From Anatilimnocola floriformis (GTDB taxonomy: Bacteria > Planctomycetota > Planctomycetia > Pirellulales > Pirellulaceae): a stretch of 64,000 bases of DNA. This document shows, piece by piece, positions 12,874 through 59,839 of the stretch (positions are counted from its first letter, which is position 1; the number at the start of each line of letters is the position of its first letter). The notes beneath the pieces were generated by a model. The model had not been told where the DNA came from and made no database searches. It worked only from the letters and a program-made list of their open reading frames with translations. A program made the translations under genes and the position numbers. The stretch lies in the NCBI RefSeq assembly GCF_024256385.1, contig NZ_JAMLFW010000001.1, positions 310,001 to 374,000 on the forward strand, given 5' to 3'.

Positions 12874-12902
12874 TTGATTTGCGAAGTGGACAAACGTACA
12901 AT
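12874..12902 (+). promoter_or_regulatory. Predicted sigma70-type promoter of intergenic element A
   Basis: TTGATT at 12874-12879, a 17-bp spacer and TACAAT at 12897-12902. The spacer contains AGTGGACAA, which also occurs in the spacer of the promoter at 56481-56508. It lies 21 bp after the stop of the HAD gene and reads into the element. Confidence 0.5.
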
Positions 12903-13215
12903 AGCCTGCGGCCAGTGCTGCGCAAGTGCGAGCGTCGCACACTTACTATCGGCTGGGCGATTGTGGAGACGATTGTTAGCAACGGTAGTGCGGACTGTTG
13001 TGCGAGGAATGCTGAAAACAACGGCTTGTGAGCTGCGCGTAAGTTGCAAGTGATGAGCGAGACAGTAGTTTGGGTCAGGGAGTAGTTTGTAAGATAAGAA
13101 AAACACTCTCTGCCAAAGTGTTGTGTAGAAAATGCGGTGTTTGTTCGTAAGTGATGACTACTAAAGACAATAGGCAGGTTCAGAAAACTCGCACAAGTGT
13201 TGTATATTCGCAGGC
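12903..13215 (+). ncRNA. Intergenic element A: candidate structured leader or small RNA
   Basis: About 310 bp with lower GC than its neighbours and dense GTTGTG, AAGTGTTG and ACAAC words; no plausible protein on either strand. CGTAAGTGATGACT near 13147-13160 and CGCACAAGTGTTGTATATTC at 13190-13209 recur in the same order in element C on the minus strand at 56.1-56.5 kb, the second with a single mismatch. A local hairpin AACACT...AGTGTT is possible just before the GTAAGTG block, and element C has a counterpart AACACT...GGTGTT. The element ends 29-35 bp before the ATG of the Rieske-flavoprotein gene, so it may be its 5' leader. The boundaries and an RNA nature are inference. Confidence 0.45.
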
Positions 13216-13243
13216 AAAAGTTCTTTAAGGGCGGAGTAACTTC

Positions 13244-14323
13244 ATGACGACACAACCGACCTGGCACCGCCTGGGAATCGCTGCAGAACTTCAAAAAACT
13301 CCGCTGCAACAAATTCGCATCGGTGAGCTCGTCATCGCGCTCTCGTTTCGCGACGGCCAATTCGGCGCGATCAGCGGCGTGTGTAACCACGTCGGCGGTC
13401 CGCTCGGTGAAGGAACGCTCAGCAAGGAGGACTATGTCGTCTGTCCGTGGCACAGCTGGCATTTTCATCGGCTGACCGGCCTCGCCCGGCCCGGCATTCC
13501 CTCGGCCGTTCCAGTTTACGAAACGAAGATCGAAAACGGCGATCTGTTTCTGAATCTCGCAGCCGTCACCGAGCGCAAACACGCGCCGCATCCGCATCAT
13601 CCGCTCACGCGCGAAGTCAAACGCGAGCCGGGGCCGCTGCGGATAGTTGGGATCTCGACCACGGCGATGAATCAGGCTTTTCCTCGCTATTCCACCTCGC
13701 AAGATCTGCTGCAAGTCGCGCTCGCAGGGGCCGCTGAATCCGGCGCAGAGTCGAAATACATCGATCTCAACGCTCTGAATTTCAAACACTGCGAGGGGTA
13801 CTATTCGAAAAGTGCCGGCGCTTGCACCTGGCCCTGCACCATTACGCAGATGGATGCCACCGATCAACTCGATCAGGTTTACGAAGCCATCGTTTTCTGG
13901 GCCGATGTGGTGTTGATCAGCACGTCGATTCGTTGGGGTGCGCCGAGCTCGCTCTATTTCAAAATGATCGAGCGAATGAACTGCATTCAAAATCAAATCA
14001 CGATTGCCGATCGCGTGCTGATTCAAAACAAGGTGGCCGGCTTTGTGATTACCGGCGGCCAGGACAATATCCAAGCCGTGGCCGGTCAGATGATGATGTT
14101 CTTCGGCGAGCTTGGTTTTCACCTGCCGCAGTTTCCGTTCATCGCTCATAGTCGTGGCTGGTCGGCAGAGGACATGGAGAATAACATCGCGTATGTGAAA
14201 ACCAACGACGATCTGCGGGCCGGCGCGGTAGCCCTCACCGAACGCTGCCTGCAACTTGCCGGCGGCCTGGTCGCATGCGAAGCGGCGGGCAGCATCGAAC
14301 GGGGCGGCCGCAAAGCTCATTAG
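13244..14323 (+). CDS. Rieske [2Fe-2S] - NADPH-dependent FMN reductase fusion protein
   Basis: A 359-residue cytoplasmic protein. The N-terminal 100 residues form a Rieske-type ferredoxin domain with C47-N-H49 and C67-P-W-H70 as the 2Fe-2S ligands. From about residue 130 a flavodoxin-fold FMN reductase domain starts (RIVGISTT) and continues through WADVVLISTSIRWGAPSS and KVAGFVITGGQDN. A short Cys-rich stretch (HCEGYY...ACTWPC) lies where iron-sulfur flavoproteins carry their cluster cysteines, but only three cysteines remain. The fusion would move electrons between flavin and Rieske centre in one chain; the substrate is unknown. GGAG lies 9 bp before the ATG. The secreted metalloprotease gene follows after 9 bp. 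Confidence 0.85.
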   Translation: MTTQPTWHRLGIAAELQKTPLQQIRIGELVIALSFRDGQFGAISGVCNHVGGPLGEGTLSKEDYVVCPWHSWHFHRLTGLARPGIPSAVPVYETKIENGDLFLNLAAVTERKHAPHPHHPLTREVKREPGPLRIVGISTTAMNQAFPRYSTSQDLLQVALAGAAESGAESKYIDLNALNFKHCEGYYSKSAGACTWPCTITQMDATDQLDQVYEAIVFWADVVLISTSIRWGAPSSLYFKMIERMNCIQNQITIADRVLIQNKVAGFVITGGQDNIQAVAGQMMMFFGELGFHLPQFPFIAHSRGWSAEDMENNIAYVKTNDDLRAGAVALTERCLQLAGGLVACEAAGSIERGGRKAH

Positions 14324-48835: not shown

Positions 48836-49074
48836 TTGTCGCCGAATTCTCCCAGAGCGAAGGCTGACTTCTATTTGCCACCGCCGGAACTTCGCGGGGC
48901 TCGTTCCTAAGCGCGCTTCAGGTTGACCTCAGCCCATCGTTTTCGGAGAAAACGACGACAAACGACAAAGCGCGCTCGGACCAAAGTTGTCCGACCTCGG
49001 CGAATAATGAGAGACGTTGCTCTTTCTCAAGCTGGTGGATTTTTTTGCGCTTCGTTGGCGAACGCTGAGTTCCC

Positions 49075-49270
49075 TACTCGGAGCTGATCGTTGTGAGGTG
49101 ATGCAATCTGTTGTGAACAACAACAGAAAGTAGTTGTAAAAAGCTGAGAAGTGTTGAGCGAATTTGTGTGGTGTTTTTTGTAAGGTTGGACGGCGAAACG
49201 GTTTGCGAGGATCAAGAAGTCGCCACAACTGTTGTGAACCAGCAGCGGTCAGCTGGGAATTCGCGGATTG
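49075..49270 (+). other. Intergenic element B, weaker relative of A and C
   Basis: A 440-bp gap (48836-49275) downstream of the LPS-export-like gene. From about 49080 it is rich in GTTGTG words like element A. It shares with A, in the same order, AGTAGTT(T)GTAA, AAGTGTTG and GGTGTTT(K)TT(C)GTAAG. A perfect 7-bp hairpin CTGTTGT/ACAACAG sits at about 49109-49127. The 20-nt terminal block of A and C is absent and no clear promoter is seen. The first 240 bp of the gap show nothing recognisable. Confidence 0.4.
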
Positions 49271-54493: not shown

Positions 54494-56011
54494 TTATCCC
54501 CTGAAGAACACGAACGTCACGAGCACGAAAATCGGAATCAACACGCCGCAGCTGTACAGCATATAGCCGAAGAAGCTCGGCATCCGCACGTTGTTTTCCT
54601 CGGCAATCGCTTTCACCATAAAGTTCGGGCCGTTGCCGATGTAGGTGTTGGCGCCCATGAAGACCGCTCCGCAGGAAATCGCCTTGAGCAGGCGAACCGC
54701 GGTGGGACCTTGGGCGAGGAAGGTCTTCAGGTAGTCGCTCCCTTCAGCGGCAACACCGTTCAAGCCGCACGCGGTGGCAGCCATCGTCATGTAGGTTGGC
54801 GCGTTATCGAGAAAGCTCGACAGAGCGCCGCTGACCCAAAAGAACTGCCACGGCTCGCGCATGCCGAACTTCACGCCGAGAATTTCACGGCCACCCTCAG
54901 GCTGGCCCCAAGCATTCAGAATCAGCAAAGCCGGGGCCATCGTGATGAAGATGCCGATGAAGAGGACGGCCACTTCGATGATCGGCCCGAACGTGAATTT
55001 GTTCTGCGCGCGGTTTTCGTTCGCCGTCGTCAGATAAGCCGCGATCGCCAGGCCTGCCATAATGCCTTGCTGCATTCCCCATGGCCAAGGTTGGTTGCCC
55101 GGAAGCTTTACATTTCCCGAGCAATAGATCGTCGCCACGACGCCGAGCAGAAATAGAAAGTTCAAGCCGCCAGAAACGCCGATCGGCTCGTGCTTCATCA
55201 CTTCTTCGAGCTGCGAACCAGGGCGTTCTTTTTCTTCCCGTGCGAAGACAATCTGATCCCAGACATTAAAAATGACGAGCAACAGCACGTTCACCAGCAA
55301 CCATTGCTGCCAGAGGTTAACGATCGTCCATTCGAACGGCACGCCTTTGAGAAAACCCATGAACAGCGGCGGATCGCCCAGCGGCGTGAGCAAGCCGCCG
55401 CAGTTCGATACCACGAAAATAAAGAACACCACAATATGCGCCACGTTTTGCCGCGTCTTGTTTGCTCGCAGCAGCGGCCTGATGAGGAGCACCGACGCGC
55501 CGGTCGTGCCAATGAAACTGGCGACGATCGCCCCGAGACCCAGCAGCGCAGTATTCGCCAGCGGCGTGCCGTTGAGCGAACCTCGCACATAAATGCCGCC
55601 GCTGATCACATACAGCGCGGCCAGCAAGATCATGAACGAAATGTATTCCCTCAACTGCTCGACCAGCACATGCCCGCCCGCCCAGTGCATGGCAACCAAG
55701 TACGCCATCAACGGCGCCGACAGCCCCACCACGACATAGGCCTTATGGACATTGCTCTCCCACCAGTGCGCTGCATACAGCGGCAAAACAGCAATGCAGA
55801 GCAGCAGCAAAACGAACGGCAGCACCGTGATTAGCGGCAGCGTCGGCCCCATCTCGGCAATCTTTTGCTGCAACTCGGCGTGAGCGGCCCCGTCCTGGGC
55901 TGCGATTGGCTGCGACATCGCCAGTAAAAAAACAAACGCGAGCAGCGCGGACCAAAAAGCAGGCGACTTCATCATGGGAGCGTAGCCAAGTTGAAAAAAC
56001 GAAACGCCCAT
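54494..56011 (-). CDS. nhaD: NhaD-type Na+/H+ antiporter
   Basis: A 505-residue protein of the ArsB/NhaD/CitMHS fold with about 12 membrane helices. It shows FIGTTGASVLLIRPLLRANKTRQNVAHIVVFF, LTPLGDPPLFMGFLKGVPFEW, FLDNAPTYMTMAATA and ISCGAVFMGANTYIGNGPNFMVKAIAE, the two repeated pore signatures. The N-terminus has a signal-peptide-like stretch (MKSPAFWSALLAFVFLLAMSQPIAA). GGAGG 5 bp upstream supports ATG 56011. It would exchange Na+ or Li+ for protons. It precedes two TMEM43-like genes and follows intergenic element C. Confidence 0.9.
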   Translation of the reverse strand: MGVSFFQLGYAPMMKSPAFWSALLAFVFLLAMSQPIAAQDGAAHAELQQKIAEMGPTLPLITVLPFVLLLLCIAVLPLYAAHWWESNVHKAYVVVGLSAPLMAYLVAMHWAGGHVLVEQLREYISFMILLAALYVISGGIYVRGSLNGTPLANTALLGLGAIVASFIGTTGASVLLIRPLLRANKTRQNVAHIVVFFIFVVSNCGGLLTPLGDPPLFMGFLKGVPFEWTIVNLWQQWLLVNVLLLVIFNVWDQIVFAREEKERPGSQLEEVMKHEPIGVSGGLNFLFLLGVVATIYCSGNVKLPGNQPWPWGMQQGIMAGLAIAAYLTTANENRAQNKFTFGPIIEVAVLFIGIFITMAPALLILNAWGQPEGGREILGVKFGMREPWQFFWVSGALSSFLDNAPTYMTMAATACGLNGVAAEGSDYLKTFLAQGPTAVRLLKAISCGAVFMGANTYIGNGPNFMVKAIAEENNVRMPSFFGYMLYSCGVLIPIFVLVTFVFFRG

Positions 56012-56104
56012 CGTAGCCTCCGCACCAACCGACCAACAGGGTTTTTGCCACCTGCCTTTGCACCTGCGAATCGTCGGGCACTCTTCCCTTAGCTTTCCTT
56101 TGCG

Positions 56105-56480
56105 TCAGAATCTACAACACTTGTGCGGATGGATCGCATTCGCTGAAAGCGATTGCCCAGCCACCACTTACGCTCCAAATCGTCGATTTTTCACAATATT
56201 TTCACAACACCTGATGACGATGTTGTTGTTAAGTGTTGCGCACATCACGCTCGCCACAAGCCACTCGCCTGCAGCGACTTGCCGTCGCCCACTAACTCAC
56301 AACCCTTATTTTTCCACCTTTTGCGGCCACAACAATTCGTTGTTGCTCCACAACTTCGCTTCCCATTACCACAACAACTGCCATGCTGAAGCCCTTCCTC
56401 AAGACTATGGGCTTGGCAGTGCAGGGTGGTTTCCGACAACCAAATTGTGAATGAGCAAAACACCAATCGCGCCAATGTGT
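56105..56480 (-). ncRNA. Intergenic element C: candidate structured leader or small RNA
   Basis: On the minus strand this runs from the promoter at 56481-56508 to about 56105, 94 bp before the nhaD start codon. It shares with element A, in order, a spacer AGTGGACAA, the block CGTAAGTGGTGGCT (near 56160-56173) and CGCACAAGTGTTGTAGATTC (56108-56127), one mismatch from A. It is rich in GTTGTG words and has candidate hairpins AACACT...GGTGTT and ACAAC/GTTGT. No plausible protein on either strand. The remaining 94 bp to nhaD would be leader sequence. RNA nature is inferred. Confidence 0.45.
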
Positions 56481-56508
56481 GTTATACACTTGTCCACTAA
56501 TTGGGCAA
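56481..56508 (-). promoter_or_regulatory. Predicted sigma70-type promoter of element C
   Basis: On the minus strand TTGCCC (56503-56508), a 16-bp spacer with AGTGGACAA, and TATAAC (56481-56486). It reads toward the NhaD gene. The spacer block matches the promoter of element A. Confidence 0.5.
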
Positions 56509-57238: not shown

Positions 57239-57280
57239 TGCAGTGTCTCCGAGAAATGAGTCGCCGGCTCTGGGGAGGTG

Positions 57281-57520
57281 CACGGCGTGTACTCACCCGT
57301 GTCTGTGTAAGCCATTTTCGCGCGCCGTGGGCGCCGCGCACGGCCGCATCCAGTTGATCCCTCACTACCCTGGCAAAGGCAAGCAGAACTCAACTCAAGG
57401 CTGCCACACGCGGCGCAGCGACGTTACCTCAGAAGGGCACGAGTTCTAGCTGCACTCCCTCAACTGCATCTCGCGAGAATAGCCGACGAAGACACGGGTG
57501 AGTACACGCCGTGCCACCCA
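57281..57520. repeat. MITE-like repeat, copy 1, with 23-bp inverted ends
   Basis: CACGGCGTGTACTCACCCGTG at 57281-57301 (23-bp arm to 57303) is the exact inverse of 57491-57513. The right portion 57387-57520 is 134 bp long and about 95 percent identical to 59695-59828. The gap 57239-57606 otherwise contains only the ribosome site of the next gene. No transposase. Confidence 0.75.
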
Positions 57521-57606
57521 AAGCTGTAATGGCGTACCATAATTGGGTTCCAGAACCCGTCGAGCGTAAACAGGATGTAACCGGCAATCCCTATCAGGAG
57601 CCAGGT

Positions 57607-59652: not shown

Positions 59653-59694
59653 TCGACGGCAATCTCGAGTTCGCCTCCTACGACAATTACCTCG

Positions 59695-59828
59695 AACTCA
59701 ACTCAATGCTGCCGCGCGCGGCGCAGCGACGTTACCTCAGAAGGGCACGAGTTCCAACTGCACTCTCTCAACTGCATCTCGCGAGAATAGCCGACGACGA
59801 CACGGGTGAGTACACGCCGTGCCACCCA
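59695..59828. repeat. MITE-like repeat, copy 2 (direct repeat of 57387-57520)
   Basis: A 134-bp sequence with about seven mismatches to 57387-57520, in the same orientation. It lies between the end of the HEAT-like gene and the end of the TetR gene. The left inverted end seen in copy 1 is missing. Confidence 0.8.
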
Positions 59829-59839
59829 AGCAGAAAGCT

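Follow-up and report, generated by a model that had tools for sequence, protein, structure and literature searches.

BoxA, a Nus-factor antitermination signal, has been described for rRNA, for some CRISPR leaders and for a number of mRNAs. Here, we compare these systems with element C, a non-coding element of about 420 nt on the minus strand of the window (the whole 64,000-nt stretch of DNA that was analysed), which is opened by a promoter sequence at 56508-56481 and has its 3' limit near 56086. With a probability of roughly 0.57, we read element C as one of a set (of the order of 100) of dispersed noncoding transcription units with promoter and boxA, many of which would start like the genome's own rRNA operons. 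We put this reading no higher because fewer than half of the 50 loci examined have a clear boxA. If it is right, Nus-factor antitermination would also cover noncoding transcription on a large scale; a family of intergenic units in a planctomycete-like genome would bear that genome's own rRNA boxA, and one could ask what needs such RNAs.

The elements share with rRNA operon leaders, where NusB/NusE antitermination acts, the succession of promoter and boxA: a matrix built from 18 elements, with rRNA and sampled-region members left out, scored the genome's own 16S leader at 27.0 and its 23S leader at 30.9. TGTTGTG-type boxes are also enriched in the 16S leader (5 vs. 1.34 expected from shuffles, p = 0.004). 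The elements differ in that no rRNA follows them, in their dozens of copies, in that the module profiles do not pick up the leaders beyond a single weak match (E = 0.14) and in that the 23S leader is not enriched in boxes (1 vs. 1.43). Repeats of the BOX, REP and BIME type are scattered intergenic copies with modules in variable number, and our elements are likewise scattered, intergenic and modular with a variable module number; unlike such repeats, many carry a promoter and boxA in fixed order, and their copies are very diverged.

CRISPR arrays whose leaders carry boxA (Stringer et al., as cited in PMC7862264) resemble the elements in that boxA precedes a long RNA that is untranslated and contains repeats; a Legionella CRISPR boxA is GTTCTTTAAAA (PMC7862264). 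A CRISPR array reading does not fit, however: such an array would alternate identical direct repeats with unrelated spacers, and here the stretches between boxes are homologous across copies. The boxA that controls suhB and other genes (PMC5725501) also lies outside rRNA; there, boxA lies near gene start codons, whereas our elements are many noncoding intergenic units, half of 50 without a codirectional gene downstream. We found no description of a boxA-bearing dispersed noncoding family in planctomycetes in the open-licence literature searched, including the accessible portions of PMC2864571, PMC4807359, PMC7862264, PMC10250234 and PMC5725501.

Architecture of element C

The first-pass annotation had element C opened by TTGCCC-16-TATAAC, and this is what we found on the minus strand: a -35-like TTGCCC (56503-56508) and a -10-like TATAAC (56481-56486) separated by a 16-nt spacer that holds TAGTGGACA. 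Taken alone, this promoter is at chance (score 8.5, z = 1.2, equalled by 8 of 60 dinucleotide shuffles, 8.9 on the opposite strand) under a matrix of E. coli-like frequencies. It rises above chance because similar promoters recur at family loci. Downstream of it, beginning at 56457, is a boxA-like motif, TGCTCATTCACAATTTGGTTGTCGG (56433-56457, minus strand), which scored 24.8 with a matrix built without element C; the boxA part of the element also weakly matches the genome's own 16S leader (BLAST, 23 nt, 87%, E = 6.7).

The remainder of the element, on the same strand, is built of boxes and modules. Three TTGTTGTGG-type boxes (56366-56378, 56346-56356 and 56327-56338) precede module 1 (56218-56312), which contains TTGTG, GGCAAG, CTTGTGG and GCGCAA motifs with TT and AA dinucleotides 21-22 nt apart. 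These are followed by tandem box 2, AGGTGTTGTGAAAATATTGTGAAA, an 11-nt repeat (56189-56212), by module 2 with its GCGTAAG motif (56113-56197; 79 nt from box to box, E = 1e-11 when held out) and by box 3, CGCACAAGTGTTGTAGATT, with the core GCACAAGTGTTGTA (56109-56127). The conserved stretch ends with GCTAAGGG (56086-56093), where we recognised no terminator by eye. Down to 56086, the element overlaps none of the genes called in its locus. We rejected a coding element: no frame is open in all eight closest copies, and these show no codon or three-base periodicity (conservation by phase 0.641/0.647/0.662).

These parts suggest the following order: a sigma70-type promoter, an rRNA-type boxA some tens of nucleotides further on at most, and then modules made up of TGTTGTG boxes and CGYAAG/CTTGCG half-sites at near-fixed spacing. 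RNA polymerase would start at about 56474, and boxA in the nascent RNA would recruit NusB-S10 and partners. Made Rho-resistant by this antitermination, the polymerase would produce an untranslated RNA of ~350-390 nt ending near 56086, in which the modules would act as RNA and not as DNA. Alternatively, the polymerase may read on into the antiporter-like gene downstream.

A dispersed family of intergenic elements

At least three copies of the family, A, B and C, lie in the window. Element A (12874-13231, plus strand) has a promoter sequence (TTGATT, 12874-12879; TACAAT, 12897-12902) and boxes at 12992-13002, 13115-13128 and 13188-13210, and showed no clear boxA in pattern and matrix scans of the loci. 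Element B (48986-49240, plus strand), the third window copy and one of the nine profile loci described below, begins with GTTGTCC at 48986 and carries a boxA, TTGCTCTTTCTCAAGCTGGTGGA (49017-49039, matrix score 28.4), boxes at 49089-49160, TTTTTTGTAAGG at 49174-49185 and a final box, CCACAACTGTTGTGAACC, at 49223-49240. Direct similarity between A and C extends over 48 nt at 75% identity. When A, C and H were held out, a profile search of an 854-kb sample still recovered both elements, C at E = 2.9e-47 with 160 bits and A at E = 2.8e-15, and gave no decoy match at E ≤ 1; the similarity of A and C is therefore real.

Elsewhere in the genome, a second copy, D (L002, C1:84941-85334), matches nearly the whole length of element C (BLAST, 75% identical, E = 8e-81). 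Across the 8.93 Mb of the genome, GCACAAGTGTTGTA, a 14-mer, was found at four places, which belong to A, C, D and E, and a longer form of it, allowing up to two mismatches, matched 8 times vs. 1 for a reversed control; 27 of 198 other genomes also have a match to this longer form, one or two each. Eight elements align nearly gap-free across 250 nt. A sequence-only model of these eight, for which 150 of 811 candidates were scored, gave at least 69 matches in the genome, 34 of them at E < 1e-5, the eight training members included. We examined 50 of the 69, namely the 30 best and a further 20 with E-values of up to 0.029, leaving out the 19 weakest. With sampled-region members held out, a module-2 profile found nine loci at E < 1e-3 in the 854-kb sample and no decoy at E ≤ 1, and a module-1 profile gave one decoy match (E = 0.053) in the same sample. 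A family size of the order of 100 copies would follow by extrapolation from this sample (94 overall), in which seven of the nine loci fall in the part that contains the window.

The family is modular, with a module number that varies between mostly diverged copies, and it is intergenic: 49 of the 50 loci overlap no called gene, using a codon-usage caller trained on 31 window ORFs. Searches of plasmid and phage collections returned no match to the element. We also observed a sub-family (C1:586709 and C1:1127463 in the same genome, L128 and L129) in whose boxes GTTATAAAA takes the place of GTTGTGAAA.

Recurrent promoter-like sequences and a probable rRNA-type boxA

Within 420 nt upstream of the match, the best promoter reached z ≥ 2.0 in 23 of the 50 loci, and in 18 none of 60 shuffles was as good. 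The mean promoter score across the 50 was 8.95 vs. 6.44 on the opposite strand. At a few loci (e.g., L098 and L112), the best promoter lies close to the match, away from the 5' edge. Many spacers carry TAGTG(G/T)ACA, and the pattern TAGTGKACANNTGTAYA with up to two mismatches gave 34 matches vs. 8 for a reversed control. Element B (window 48986), L120, L124, L125 and L130 have AAGTTGTC/AGTTGTCC upstream instead of TTGAC..TATAAT and are perhaps a second promoter class.

Two readings of sequences within the elements were dropped. The dyad of BlaI/MecI-type repression is TACAnnTGTA, which the TAGTGGACAnnTGTATA spacer resembles; the genome has four PF03965 genes, one of whose loci has plain TACAnnTGTA dyads, and none of the four loci holds the spacer sequence at fewer than four mismatches. 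A DnaA-box reading of TGTGGAAAA was set aside on inspection only.

A motif like TGNTCTTTGGCAATTTGGTGGA follows the promoter in element C and in 19-23 of the 50 loci, and TGNTCTTTGGCAANNTGGTGGA lies between promoter and first box in many. Using a pattern drawn up by visual inspection of C, D and I, we found that 19 of the 50 loci reached 12 of 16 positions (0.94 expected); a self-trained matrix exceeded 10 in 23 of 50, compared with none of the 50 sequences when reversed and two when reverse-complemented, although two of the 23, L120 and L130, are doubtful. In many of these 23, though not in every one, a -10-like sequence can be seen ahead of boxA. More than half of the 50 loci, including A, have no clear boxA.

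We identified the rRNA genes with RF00177 and RF02541 and found that the 23S leader carries nearly the same boxA sequence as the 16S leader. From its likeness to these two leaders, we read the motif of the elements as the genome's rRNA-type boxA. The gamma-proteobacterial boxA consensus is GYTCTTTAANA (PMC5725501). In the 854-kb sample, only five sites scored above 20 with the boxA matrix, those of C and B among them, while the reversed control reached at most 14.8; weaker sites (14-18) are scattered through the sample. All five lie 95-155 nt upstream of a same-strand element match. Three of them adjoin modules that are weak on their own (E = 0.045, 0.076 and 0.43, the last at E = 0.06 in the genome-wide model), and C and B are the only two of the nine stronger sample loci with a boxA above 20. 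The 16S (C2:~1.859 Mb) and 23S (~1.948 Mb) genes that we found are separated by ~88 kb and have separate leaders, both with a boxA; there is no 16S in the 1.8 kb preceding the 23S gene.

Distribution in related genomes

No DNA homolog of the element was found at E ≤ 1e-3 in 59 relatives, and a genome of the same genus gave only weak model matches (best E = 2e-4). At one of these (L107, C1:5521220), the homologous module interior occurs twice, 178 nt apart, with AATAACGGAAATTTCC replacing the TGTTGTG box. A two-mismatch pattern match in the same-genus genome (L075) gave an unconvincing alignment and was rejected. In other genera, 35 candidates per genome were scored in the profile search, so absence there means little. 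Seven matches from other genera were inspected: L137 and L138 resemble chance matches within coding sequence, and the other five have the inverted-repeat form with no shared box. As a separate observation, L185 and L144 (G079) hold arrays with a period of ~190 nt and a different box, AACAAAACGTTCACCTCAAA.

This distribution is what one might expect of a decaying mobile repeat of the REP, BOX or MITE kind that captured an rRNA leader once and spread without function, as are the many intergenic copies, the variable module number and the box that differs within the genus. Yet the motif spacing is kept among copies at a mean column identity of 66% (eight closest copies) or 55% (29 module-1 sequences), which suggests selection, and we consider functionless spread improbable. 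Alignment A4 was made without three fragment rows.

Boxes and half-sites as possible RNA or DNA signals

Boxes of the form AA(C/G)TGTTGT(G/A) stand at recurrent distances, among them 10-12, 20-23, 78/79, 90/91 and 123/124 nt. In the profile, TT34-AA56-TT77-AA99 and AA168-TT189 are separated by 22, 21, 22 and 21 nt; these dinucleotides belong to TTGCG and CGCAAG half-sites, and most members have few indels in this spacing. RNAalifold gave no useful consensus for eight sequences (20 pairs at -1.8 kcal/mol) and no structure for module 2, from which one overlapping module had been left out. The best covarying stem, at the expected place in the module-2 inverted repeat, had z = 4.1, with column-shuffled maxima of 3.4-4.4, and the fold energy had z = -2.5 for C and z = +0.5 for D. 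An RNA structure of the elements is not clearly supported.

The inverted repeat is also found in relatives. We counted gap lengths in 199 genomes of the same family (144 entries, 139 distinct, with the second-strand rows of six palindromic sites left out): 51 of the 144 matches listed had the 27-nt form GCAAGTNGTT-N11-ACTTGC, one of 17 gap lengths (p = 2e-26, treating the matches as independent, though close species are included). This form occurs in, e.g., L172, L181-L185, L187, L190 and L193 and has no perfect copy in the element's own genome. Within the 27-nt repeats of relatives, there was no significant inner covariation (best pair p = 0.065). By eye, some of these copies follow apparent tmRNA or tRNA 3' ends or precede sigma54-like sequences.

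The near-fixed spacing of 21-22 nt may suit DNA-protein contacts better than RNA. The elements could accordingly be read as DNA to which a nucleoid or architectural protein binds at arrayed sites, with selection acting on TT/AA half-sites 21-22 bp apart and on palindromic CACAACTGTTGTG boxes. The recurrent box distances, the weak covariation and the family-wide preference for a 27-bp repeat with the same 21-nt AA-TT distance all favour such a DNA element; it leaves unexplained why a promoter-like sequence and an rRNA-type boxA accompany the modules in fixed orientation, and we find it distinctly unlikely. This constant orientation argues instead for a transcribed, untranslated RNA, as in the reading of the elements as promoter and boxA units.

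Neighbouring genes and the leader hypothesis

Element C lies upstream of an antiporter-like gene (54494-56011, minus strand, 505 aa), as the first-pass annotation had it, with the conserved stretch stopping at 56086, 75 nt ahead of the gene. The protein matches PF16980, CitMHS_2 "Putative citrate transport" (Pfam), and no NCBIfam model at E ≤ 0.001; NhaD remains a label that rests on that annotation. Element A stops 13 nt before a gene at 13244 whose product has the Rieske and FMN_red domains previously assigned to it (Pfam). It had been proposed that A and C are either leaders through which these two genes share a sodium, pH or redox signal or paralogous trans-acting RNAs.

A leader of this kind would make element C a long 5' UTR that regulates the antiporter by sensing sodium, pH or redox. 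Its short distance from the start codon speaks for this, as do those of A (13 nt) and element E (19 nt); with C (75 nt), these are the smallest three of 25 codirectional gaps, and read-through into those genes is therefore possible. The next gene is nevertheless codirectional in only 25 of the 50 loci and convergent in the other 25, including that of the closest copy, D (L002), which ends beside a convergent gene. The median gap from match to gene was 176 nt for codirectional and 32 nt for convergent neighbours (p = 9e-6), and longer codirectional gaps are expected of autonomous units because they leave room for the neighbour's own promoter.

Among the 80 best relatives of the antiporter (43-65% identical, so that only old conservation is tested; mostly planctomycete at the top of the list, hence our calling the genome planctomycete-like), the profile matched nothing at E ≤ 1. 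Upstream sequence of 200 nt or more was available for 78 of them, and neither the box nor the inverted repeat was present within 600 nt in any of these. Eight neighbour proteins run against Pfam, with about 90 other neighbours left out, were mixed: ruvC, ExbB, a cobalamin adenosyltransferase, a phosphoesterase, an endo/exonuclease, a beta-lactamase family member and two without a family. Rfam 15 likewise gave nothing at gathering score in the window; at 16 of the 50 loci (E ≤ 1), it gave only miRNA models, at L120 1130-1332, outside the boxes of that locus, and no match at the elements themselves. Element C is not nhaD-specific, and we judge a sensing leader to be very improbable.

Given the convergent neighbours, the 78 ortholog upstream regions without the element and the mixed genes among the eight neighbours run, the proposal of leaders with a shared signal is not supported, and no common signal need be assumed for the antiporter and Rieske genes. 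Its other half, paralogous trans-acting RNAs, appears to fit better with the promoter, boxA and position of the elements. Element C is probably an independent RNA gene and not a sodium or pH sensor of the transporter.

More speculatively, the ~100 RNAs made by the rRNA-type antitermination machinery could be mimics of pre-rRNA leaders that compete with the rRNA leaders for NusB-S10, and perhaps for processing enzymes, tying ribosome synthesis to genome-wide transcription. Rho-resistant polymerase would then also lay down long antisense RNA over convergent genes, and the boxes, which differ between lineages, would change together with the factors that bind them. We regard this extension as unlikely.

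Finally, beyond the upstream end of element C, the window contains a 136-nt repeat (57386-57521 and 59694-59829, 95% identical) around the gene at 57511, and a 43-nt inverted arm at 57280-57322 (GCACGGCGTGTACTCACCCGTGTC...) belongs to this repeat.
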